Shown here: positions 1-48,524 of the stretch, in pieces
Numbering within the stretch: position 1 is the first letter of the stretch
Layout: every line of letters begins with the position of its first letter
Assembly: GCA_903860195.1 (NCBI GenBank)
Contig: CAIOPO010000040.1
Span: forward strand, 1 to 48,524
Length of the DNA: 48,524 nucleotides
Direction: 5' to 3'
Source of the DNA: an uncultured Opitutia bacterium
GTDB lineage: Bacteria > Verrucomicrobiota > Verrucomicrobiia > Opitutales > UBA953
Position numbers and translations under genes: made by a program
Notes under the pieces: model-generated
Database searches by the model: none
Seen by the model: only the letters and a program-made list of their open reading frames with translations
What the model was told of the DNA's origin: nothing

Positions 1-1235
1 GGGGCCGGAGCGGCGGACGGGGCGGCCGCGGCCGCGGGCGCGCGGCGGGGGGAGAGCACGTCGGAGGGCAGGTCCTTGGCGAGGATCGTCTCCCCTTTGG
101 CGAGCACGTTGGCGCGCTGGACGACGTTCTCGAGCTCGCGCACGTTGCCCGGCCAGTCGTAGGCCAGCATCGCTTCGAGCGCCTCGGCGGAGAGGCGCTT
201 CGGGCGGGATTTGCGCGCGGCGGCCTGGCGCTGGAGCATGTAGTCGACGAGCAGGGGCACGTCGGCCTTGCGCTCCCGGAGGGCGGGCAGGCGGATGCGG
301 AAGACGTTCAGCCGGTAATAGAGGTCCTCACGGAACTGGCGTCCCGCGACCATCGTCTCGAGGTCCTTGTTGGTCGCGGCCACCACGCGCACGCTCACCT
401 TCAGCGTCGCCGTGCCGCCCACGCGCTGGATCTCGCCTTCCTGGATGGCGCGGAGGACCTTGGTCTGGGTGGGCAGGGACATGTCGCCGATCTCATCGAG
501 GAAGATCGTGCCGCCGTCGCAGAGTTCGAACTTGCCGGGCTTCTGGCCGGCCGCGCCGGTGAAGGCCCCCTTCTCGTGTCCGAAGAGCTCGGACTCGATG
601 AGGTTTTCCGGAATCGCCGCGCAGTTCACCGCGATGAACGGCCCCTTGGAGCGGAGGGAATGCTGGTGGATGCAGCGCGCGACGAGCTCCTTGCCCGTGC
701 CGCTTTCGCCCGTGATCAGGACGGTGGCGTCGGAAGCGGCCACCTGGCCGATCGACTTGAGGACCTCCTGCATCGGCTCGGAGCTGCCGATGATGCCCTC
801 CTTGTAGTCGGCGGGATTGACCAGCGCGCGTGACTGCTTGCCGGCGTTGACCAGGTCGCGCCGCGCCGACATCGCCTTCTCGACCAAGGCGACGAGCTTG
901 GCCTGGTCGAAGGGCTTCATGACGTAGTCGAAGGCGCCGAACTTCATCGCCTCGATCGCGGTCTGGGTGGTGCCATAGGCGGTCATGAGGATGACCATGG
1001 CCTGCGGCTGCGCTCCGCGGAGCATCTGGAGGGTCTCGATGCCGGTCATCCCGCCCATGCGGTTGTCGAGCAGGATGACGTCCGGCTGCTCGCGCTTGGC
1101 GAGACCGACGCCAGATTCGCCGCTGTCGGCCTCGATGACATTGTGACCGAGTCCTGCCAGGGCACGCCGGAGAGAATACCGCAGGTCCTTGTCGTCATCG
1201 ATGACGAGCACTTTGCTAGAGCTGGTCGCACTCAT
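1..1235 (-). CDS. sigma-54-dependent NtrC-family response regulator (3' end outside window)
   Basis: Phosphorylation-controlled activator of sigma-54 RNA polymerase. The receiver domain (residues 8-120) has the acidic cluster IDDD (12-15), phospho-acceptor D57 in LLDN, T85 in MTAYG and K107 in MKPF. The AAA+ domain follows a short linker and has Walker A GESGTGKE, the sigma-54 contact loop GAFTGA, Walker B IFLDEIGD and the [10 protein letters not shown] segment. The visible part ends in an Ala/Pro-rich linker; the Fis-type DNA-binding helix-turn-helix expected after it lies beyond the window. The start at 1235 puts the receiver beta-strand a few residues in, and no upstream in-frame start is seen. 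No Shine-Dalgarno is visible, and a sigma-54-like promoter lies so close that the mRNA would be almost leaderless. No sensor kinase is in view. The family is certain; the nitrogen role is inferred from the operator shared with glnN. Confidence 0.95.
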
Positions 1236-1248
1236 TTGACCAAAAGTA

Positions 1249-1264
1249 GGCAGGAGGTGTGCCA
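1249..1264 (-). promoter_or_regulatory. putative sigma-54 (-24/-12) promoter of the response regulator gene
   Basis: On the minus strand the sequence reads TGGCACACCTCCTGCC, matching the sigma-54 consensus TGGCAC-N5-TTGCW with GG at 1263-1262, GC at 1251-1250 and the required N10 between them. The predicted transcript start is near 1238, about three bases before the ATG at 1235, so the message would be nearly leaderless. The -12 half is imperfect (CTGCC). Support comes from the palindrome centred 62 bp upstream of the GG, the same distance as at glnN. Confidence 0.55.
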
Positions 1265-1316: not shown

Positions 1317-1332
1317 TGCCTATTTTTAGGCA
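1317..1332. promoter_or_regulatory. palindromic operator/enhancer site, copy 1
   Basis: TGCCTATTTTTAGGCA is an inverted repeat with 6-bp arms and a 4-bp spacer. Read on the minus strand, toward the response regulator gene, it is TGCCTAAAAATAGGCA, identical base for base to the site upstream of glnN. Its centre (1324.5) is 62 bp upstream of the GG of the minus-strand sigma-54 element. A further TGCCTA half-site lies at 1286-1291. The form and position fit an enhancer for a sigma-54 activator. Confidence 0.7.
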
Positions 1333-46563: not shown

Positions 46564-47574
46564 ATGCGGCCCGCCATCGCCTTGCTGCTGTTTCCGGCCC
46601 TGCTGGCCGCAGACACCGCCACGCTGAAGGACGGCACCTTCCTGCGCGGTCGCATCGAGCGGATCGTGGACGGCAGGCTGGAGATGAAGGTGCCTCTGCT
46701 CGGAGACGCGGTCCATCGCATCCCGCTTGATTCCGTCGAGTCTTTCGCGGTCGACGACGAGGTGCGGCTGAGCGACGGCGGGCCTGTCCGCCGCGGGCGC
46801 GTCTCGGCCGTGGGCGGACGGGCGGTGGCTTCCGGCTCGTCCGAGTCCGTCCCGCTCGACGCGCGCACCGAGCTCTGGCGGGACGCGGTGACCCGGCCCC
46901 ATGAAGTTCTGCCCGTGCGCAAGTGGACCGCCCAGGCGGACCTTGATGTTTCCGGCCGCTCCGGGGCGACGACCGGCAGCGGGTTCTCCGCGGGCTTCAT
47001 GGCGCGCGGGGAGTCCGCCGAGGACGTCATCACGGCCGGCGTGCGCACGATACGCACGACCGCGGGGACCCAGATCGCCGCGGACGACCTTCACGCCCAG
47101 CTGTCTTACGAGACCAATCCCGCCGAGGTGGCCTTCTGGTATCTGCGTACCGACACCGGGTATGACCACGCCCGTCAGGTCGATTTCCTCACCGTCAACA
47201 CCTTCGGTCTCGGCTTCCGGGTGTTCCAGGATCCTCTGGGCAAACTGGACCTGAGGACCGGCGTGGGTCACCGCTACGAGACATACATGTCGGAACTCCA
47301 GCCCACCTTGTCCGCTCCCTCCGCCGATCTCGGCCTGCTGTTCGTCCGCGATTTCGGCTGGGTCGAATGGAACACGCAGATTGCGGCCGTTCCGTCCCTT
47401 GAAAGTTGGAATGACTACTATGTCAGGCACGAGACGTCTTTGGGTGTCTTACGAGGCCAGGGCCCCCTTTCTGTGCGCCTCGGAGTGACCCACGATTTGC
47501 GCGGCAATCCCGTCCCCCCGCAGGTCAGGTTGGGCACCGCCTATTTCATGCGATTGGTGTATGCTTGGAAATAG
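46564..47574 (+). CDS. DUF481 outer-membrane protein
   Basis: 336 aa. Signal peptide MRPAIALLLFPALLAADTA. An N-terminal beta-rich region (LKDGTFLRGRIERIVDGRLE) precedes the DUF481 barrel, which has VSGRSGATTGSGFSAGF, LSYETNPAEVAFWYLRTDT and GLGFRVFQDPLGKLDLRTGV. The last residues AYFMRLVYAWK have the alternating pattern of an outer-membrane strand. Family members are porin-like or salt-induced outer-membrane proteins of unknown function. Its stop codon overlaps a half-site of the regulatory palindrome upstream of glnN. Confidence 0.85.
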   Translation: MRPAIALLLFPALLAADTATLKDGTFLRGRIERIVDGRLEMKVPLLGDAVHRIPLDSVESFAVDDEVRLSDGGPVRRGRVSAVGGRAVASGSSESVPLDARTELWRDAVTRPHEVLPVRKWTAQADLDVSGRSGATTGSGFSAGFMARGESAEDVITAGVRTIRTTAGTQIAADDLHAQLSYETNPAEVAFWYLRTDTGYDHARQVDFLTVNTFGLGFRVFQDPLGKLDLRTGVGHRYETYMSELQPTLSAPSADLGLLFVRDFGWVEWNTQIAAVPSLESWNDYYVRHETSLGVLRGQGPLSVRLGVTHDLRGNPVPPQVRLGTAYFMRLVYAWK

Positions 47575-47577
47575 GCA
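47562..47577. promoter_or_regulatory. degenerate second copy of the palindrome
   Basis: TGCTTGGAAATAGGCA matches the 16-bp site with a perfect right arm (TAGGCA) and four of six bases in the left. It begins 25 bp before the main site, overlapping the DUF481 stop codon. It may be a second, weaker activator site. Confidence 0.35.
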
Positions 47578-47581
47578 GGTC

Positions 47582-47607
47582 ATTTGTGCCTAAAAATAGG
47601 CACAAAT
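47582..47607. promoter_or_regulatory. palindromic operator/enhancer site, copy 2 (upstream of glnN)
   Basis: A perfect inverted repeat with 11-bp arms (ATTTGTGCCTA and TAGGCACAAAT) around AAAA. The core TGCCTAAAAATAGGCA (47587-47602) is identical in glnN-forward orientation to the site at 1332-1317 read toward the response regulator gene. The core centre (47594.5) lies 62 bp upstream of the GG of the sigma-54 element. It could fold as an RNA hairpin, but no U-run follows. Confidence 0.75.
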
Positions 47608-47654
47608 GTTTAAAAAAGACCAAGTTGTTTATGAGTAACTCTCGGTGGACTGCG

Positions 47655-47670
47655 TGGCATAGGCGGTGCT
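47655..47670 (+). promoter_or_regulatory. putative sigma-54 promoter of glnN
   Basis: TGGCATAGGCGGTGCT matches TGGCAC-N5-TTGCW with two mismatches. GG (47656-47657), N10, GC (47668-47669) has the invariant spacing. The predicted transcript starts near 47681, 17 bases before the ATG. With the palindrome upstream this makes a standard activator-dependent arrangement. Confidence 0.6.
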
Positions 47671-47697: not shown

Positions 47698-48524
47698 ATG
47701 AGCACCAATCCCGCCCGCAGCGACGCCATCAAGGCCATCGCCTCACAGCCCCGCCTCCAGGGTTCGTTCGACTTCCGCAATGAGAAGATCGACCTGATCT
47801 ACGGGCAGAACGTCTTCTCCCTCGACAAGATGGAGAAGCGTCTGCCGAAGGACGTCTTCAAGTCCCTCAAGTCCAGCATCGAGTCCGGCTCCAAGCTCGA
47901 TCACGCCGTCGCCGACGTCGTGGCCGCCGCGATCAAGGACTGGGCTCTCGAGCGCGGAGCCACGCACTACGCCCACGTGTTCTACCCGCTGACCGGCACC
48001 ACGGCCGAGAAGCACGACACCTTCTTCGAGCCGAACGGCACCGGCACCCTGGCGCAGTTCTCCGGCAAGGCGCTGATCCAGGCCGAACCTGACGCCTCCT
48101 CCTTCCCCAACGGCGGCCTGCGTTCCACTTTCGAGGCCCGCGGATACACCGCCTGGGACGTCACCTCCCCGGCTTACATCTTCGACACCGAGAACGGTTC
48201 CACCCTCTGCATCCCGACCGCCTTCGTGTCGTGGAAGGGCGAGGCCCTCGACAAGAAGACTCCGTTGCTCCGCTCCATGGCCGCGGTCAACAAGGCCGCC
48301 GCCCGCGTCCTCGCGCTGTTCGGCAAGAAGCACGGCTTCATCTCCGCCTCGTGCGGTCCTGAGCAGGAGTACTTCCTGATCGACTCGCGCCTCTACCATC
48401 TCCGCCCCGACCTCTACACCTGCGGCCGCTCCCTCTTCGGCGCCAAGCCCGCCAAGGGCCAGGAGTTCGAGGACCAGTACTTCGGCACCATCCCGGACCG
48501 CGTGCTCGCCTGCATGATGGAGAC
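47698..48524 (+). CDS. glnN: glutamine synthetase type III (GlnN), 3' end outside window
   Basis: The first 275 residues of a protein that is normally about 700. Makes glutamine from glutamate and ammonia with ATP. Type III features in order: [20 protein letters not shown] with its first residues [23 protein letters not shown], the [14 protein letters not shown] segment, and [13 protein letters not shown], which contains the active-site Glu residues. The ATG at 47698 is preceded by only a weak AGAG. The gene has a sigma-54-like promoter and the palindrome shared with the response regulator gene. It is a dodecamer in known members. The family is certain from the N-terminal region even though the C-terminal part is missing. 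Confidence 0.96.

Follow-up and report, generated by a model that had tools for sequence, protein, structure and literature searches.

A conserved palindrome upstream of sigma-54 promoters as the predicted enhancer of an NtrC-like nitrogen regulator in freshwater Opitutales

Sigma-54 promoters depend on an enhancer-bound activator. For the nitrogen regulator NtrC, the gene of the cognate kinase, NtrB, is usually adjacent. Cyanobacterial glnN, the gene of type III glutamine synthetase (GSIII), is under global nitrogen control by NtcA, a CRP-family activator that works with sigma-70. The operator of enterobacterial NtrC is TGCACC(A/T)4TGGTGCA (PMC4987338, Table 1). Within the Verrucomicrobia, Methylacidiphilum fumariolicum SolV carries ntrB, NtrC-family genes, glnB, glnK and glnD (PMC5623727, Table 3); in the part of that source covered here, no binding site or regulon is described for these nitrogen genes. 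For the Opitutales, no nitrogen circuit of the kind presented below was found in the open-access literature, subscription papers being outside that coverage, in agreement with a first-pass annotation of this DNA, which knew of no such description for the lineage.

The window (the whole stretch of 48,524 nucleotides that was analysed; 69% G+C) belongs to a draft genome of 2,096,651 bases in 209 contigs, 85% complete. It carries a glnN gene and a response-regulator gene, each preceded by the same palindrome. The regulon that we delineate from it resembles that of enterobacterial NtrC (GlnG) in its sigma-54 promoters, in palindromic enhancers whose ends are TGC and GCA around a W4 centre, and in its predicted targets, which are glutamine synthetase, glnK-amtB and the regulator gene; P-II and GlnD, which act upstream in the enterobacterial system, are matched here by gene presence only. 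It differs in several respects. The site is TGYYTA-W4-TARRCA, with changed inner half-site bases and a length of 16 rather than 17 bp; GSIII (glnN), not glnA, is the target; the regulator gene has neither glnA nor a recognised kinase gene beside it; and two promoters carry an extra copy that overlaps the -12 element. SolV shares the phylum, but uses glnA (PMC5623727, as far as that source is covered here). The cyanobacterial system also has the GSIII gene as a target, whereas sigma-54 elements and an AAA+ activator are found here.

The 16-mer TGCCTAAAAATAGGCA is present twice in the window, once upstream of glnN (47587-47602, +) and once upstream of the regulator gene (1332-1317, -), as the first-pass annotation had noticed. 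That annotation also placed both copies 62 bp from the GG of a GG-N10-GC element. The spacing is indeed equal at the two genes, but the distance from the palindrome centre to the first G is 61.5 bp. The less specific pattern TGCCTA-N4-TAGGCA has two matches in the entire draft genome, both in the window, and its reversed control has none; base composition predicts about 0.05 places for this pattern and about 3e-5 for the exact 16-mer. The palindrome is thus not scattered at random over the genome, and the glnN/regulator pair exceeds chance.

The glnN gene (47698-48524, +) is cut by the contig end and encodes the N-terminal part of GSIII, as identified by its GSIII N-terminal domain (Pfam GSIII_N, E 2.7e-74). 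Its sigma-54 -24/-12 element TGGCATAGGCGGTGC is located at 47655-47669 (+). The copy of TGCCTAAAAATAGGCA serves as the distal predicted enhancer site, and a weaker proximal copy, TGTTTAAAAAAGACCA (47607-47622, +; 13/16), lies 20 bp from it, with its centre 41.5 bp upstream of the GG. A further sequence, TGCTTGGAAATAGGCA at 47562-47577, was considered as a third site. It overlaps the last codons of the preceding gene, which encodes a DUF481 protein, and is absent where a different gene stands upstream of glnN, and for these reasons it is left out of the site count.

The regulator gene (3-1235, -; ATG at 1235) runs off the other end of the contig. Its product, P0001, comprises a receiver domain and a sigma-54 AAA+ domain, as judged by domain matches, and the GAFTGA loop is intact, as previously annotated, in this incomplete reading frame. 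The helix-turn-helix falls past the end of the contig and is supplied by an orthologue on L119, which is 96% identical over the shared part and contains Response_reg, Sigma54_activat and HTH_8 domains (Pfam), that is, a receiver, a sigma-54 AAA+ domain and a Fis-type helix-turn-helix. The -24/-12 element TGGCACACCTCCTGC is positioned at 1250-1264 (-) and the predicted enhancer site TGCCTAAAAATAGGCA at 1317-1332 (-), centred 61.5 bp upstream of the GG. The protein had been called NtrC-type. The resemblance holds, since NtrC (NCBIfam TIGR01818) is the best among the curated families listed, but the score of 492.8 bits is below the cut-off of 558.6 and does not confer membership. Among the reading frames translated beside the regulator in L117 and L119, none was recognised as a kinase gene. 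Because the score is below the cut-off, the operator differs and no adjacent kinase is recognised, we name the regulator NtrC-like rather than NtrC, and read the regulon as that of an NtrC-like sigma-54 activator with an altered operator half-site.

We compared the window with the sequences upstream of glnN (47 additional genes) and of the regulator gene (48 additional genes) in congeneric genomes. The genus consists of freshwater Opitutales genomes, with Opitutia bacterium UBA953, UBA957 and UBA7397 and Opitutae bacterium BS6 and BS10 as named members. Sites are scored out of 16 against the genus consensus TGYYTA-W4-TARRCA, and distances are given from the site centre to the GG of the sigma-54 element. 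Such an element lies upstream of every congeneric glnN and regulator gene compared (48/48 for glnN), and the sigma-54 promoters tested fit a TGGCAC-N5-TTGC-like -24/-12 sequence with GG-N10-GC. A match of at least 14/16 is present in 48/48 glnN regions, the window included, and in 48/48 regulator regions long enough to test. Dinucleotide shuffles reach this level in 1.2% (glnN) and 2.2% (regulator) of cases, although the regions are related and the trials are not independent. In the congeners glnN has two sites 19-20 bp apart: the distal one at 61.5 bp, with one genome at 71.5 bp, and the proximal one, of 12-16/16, at 41.5-42.5 bp. The regulator site is at 61.5-63.5 bp, and at 52.5 bp in three genomes. 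The site is therefore kept in place before the orthologues of both genes. Genus-wide, TGYYTAWWWWTARRCA is found at 108 places in 55 congeneric genomes, compared with 4 for the reversed control.

These observations bear on whether the palindrome is a protein-binding site at all. At glnN in the window it extends to 12+4+12 perfect bases, as might be expected of a hairpin, a terminator or a repeat element. The extension is lost in relatives, whereas the 16-mer core and its position before sigma-54 elements are retained; moreover, there are only two copies in the genome and a T run is absent. Such an origin, or a chance pair, is hardly credible, and the genome count and the genus footprint rule out chance, repeat and terminator.

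The distances point to the kind of protein that would bind. Across promoters they are about 41, 52, 62, 73, 84 and 104 bp, in steps close to whole helical turns, which fits an activator that has to engage the polymerase from a single side. An unrelated regulator (Lrp- or NtcA-like, for example), with sigma-54 elements nearby by coincidence, would explain why several genus sites, at ilvB, sucB and nuoJ, have no such element in range. It would not explain a distance to the -24 element that is constant to the single base across dozens of orthologues and changes by roughly whole helical turns between promoters, nor does it provide the enhancer-bound activator that sigma-54 promoters require. We regard it as very unlikely.

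A sigma-54 activator encoded elsewhere might instead bind the palindrome, the adjacent regulator being merely one of its targets. The receiver-AAA+-Fis plan is common to many sigma-54 activators, and the regulator scores below the NtrC cut-off, both of which leave room for another protein. Against this, the site is present at the regulator's own promoter in 48/48 orthologues, as expected for an autoregulated factor, each congeneric genome encodes only one close homologue of the regulator, and in another genus of the family (g2) the regulator and P-II are jointly absent: six g2 genomes yield no regulator at E<=1e-140 and no P-II at E<=1e-35. A different activator thus appears improbable. From the sequence comparisons, the palindrome is very probably the upstream enhancer of the NtrC-like activator encoded in the window, which would control nitrogen assimilation and itself. 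The regulator and glnN share a contig in twelve genomes, at a distance of about 46-55 kb, indicating that their linkage is conserved in many congeners.

The targets of the NtrC-like activator would not be limited to these two genes. Among the TGYYTAWWWWTARRCA places listed besides glnN and the regulator are P-II and amtB genes, where the site is followed by a sigma-54 element. At P-II in the genus the site is exactly 40.5 bp from the GG in 27/27 testable loci and is the top-scoring candidate in 25. At the first of two ammonium transporter genes, amtB-A, it is at 83.5-87.5 bp, mostly 84.5 bp, with an additional weaker match at about 103.5 bp; at the other, amtB-B, which also has a sigma-54 promoter, the matches are weaker and lie at 40.5 and 73.5 bp. 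In the source genome sigma-54 elements are present at P-II and at both amt genes, while the sites are weak (TGCACAATAATAGCCA, 13/16, at P-II; 11-12/16 at the amt genes). The first-pass annotation had proposed a small nitrogen regulon. The nitrogen role is supported, but the regulon exceeds two genes, because P-II and two amt genes share the palindrome with a sigma-54 promoter. P-II and GlnD genes are present in the source genome and in nearly all congeners (GlnD in 53/55 genomes), and the P-II protein retains the RGSEY motif, which contains the tyrosine uridylylated in the enterobacterial protein.

Other sites in the genus are of a different kind. Five congeners have an exact TGYYTA-W4-TARRCA about 130-210 bp before ilvB, the acetolactate synthase gene, adjoining runs of CCCCTA/AGGGGT hexamers and with no sigma-54 element. 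Exact intergenic sites also lie upstream of sucB (2-oxoglutarate dehydrogenase E2) at three loci and of a NuoJ-like gene at three. The sucB and nuoJ sites, hairpin-like intergenic sequences with no sigma-54 element in range, were dropped from the regulon; they may be hairpins or sites with another mode of use. In two genomes an exact site and a perfect TGGCACGGGGTCTGC precede the gene of a small predicted membrane protein (beginning MGSSTPSLFPML), divergent from a mutM-like gene.

An additional copy is found at the core promoter of the regulator. The imperfect sequence TGCCTACTTTTGGTCA (1237-1252, -) overlaps the -12 element and stops no more than 1 nt short of the ATG. The stretch that starts at the -12 is almost invariant, CTGCCTACTTTTACTCA, among 49 regulator promoters, whereas glnN promoters are variable there. 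At amtB-A, TGCTTAATAAAAAGCA, with up to 15/16 matches, occupies the same place. The distance from the -12 C to the ATG is 12-15 nt in the 49 regulator promoters. In the regulator gene (window 1235-1250), amtB-A and amtB-B taken together, the ATG follows the -12 element after only about 11-17 nt, and the mRNAs of these genes should therefore be leaderless or nearly so. The copy is not a mere result of a very short leader, as amtB-B, whose leader is also very short, has just 6-9/16 matches at the -12 place. The overlapping copies suggest that the regulator limits itself and amtB-A through a putative operator over the -12 and start region. That a single NtrC-like activator both activates from upstream and, when abundant, blocks polymerase entry at the -12 copy of its own gene and of amtB-A, upstream of a nearly leaderless mRNA, is a tentative reading, on balance somewhat doubtful.

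In sister-genus genomes the glnN sites are kept at 61.5-62.5 bp, and in sister genus g5 one regulator gene likely has a self-promoter site; apart from this likely case, the self-promoter arrangement was not found in the few readable regulator orthologues outside the genus. Matches of 13-16/16 also precede glnN in termite-gut Puniceicoccales; their distances vary, and they are suggestive only. Homologues of the regulator are common in other families of the order; there, P-II lies mostly downstream of amtB in an operon with no sigma-54 element, and most P-II promoters lack the palindrome and sigma-54 arrangement. A strict joint pattern (palindrome, 20-50 bp gap, sigma-54 element; the two sites of the window, with a gap of 52, are outside this range) is present in 14/20 sampled congeners and in 0/253 other genomes of the order, with a control of 0.

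The following sequence of events would account for the regulon. Under nitrogen shortage, P-II, modified by GlnD, would release a putative histidine kinase, which in turn would phosphorylate the receiver domain of the regulator. The activated regulator would oligomerise on the TGYYTA-W4-TARRCA sites, which precede the -24/-12 element by 40-104 bp, and contact sigma-54-RNA polymerase from a fixed helical face. In this way glnN, P-II, the two ammonium transporter genes and the regulator's own gene would be switched on. At high levels, the regulator might block its own promoter and that of amtB-A at the copy that overlaps the -12 and start region.

The predicted DNA site, distance rules and target list provide a testable nitrogen-response network for widespread uncultured lake bacteria. 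The occurrence of one arrangement before genes for ammonium uptake, nitrogen sensing, glutamine synthesis and the regulator itself shows how these organisms probably respond to nitrogen shortage. Compared with the enterobacterial NtrC operator, the half-site is changed but the spacer and the outer TGC/GCA are retained, and the genus therefore offers a natural series for the joint change of an enhancer-binding protein and its sites. The copies that overlap the -12 element offer a simple hypothesis of how limitation may be built into such a network.
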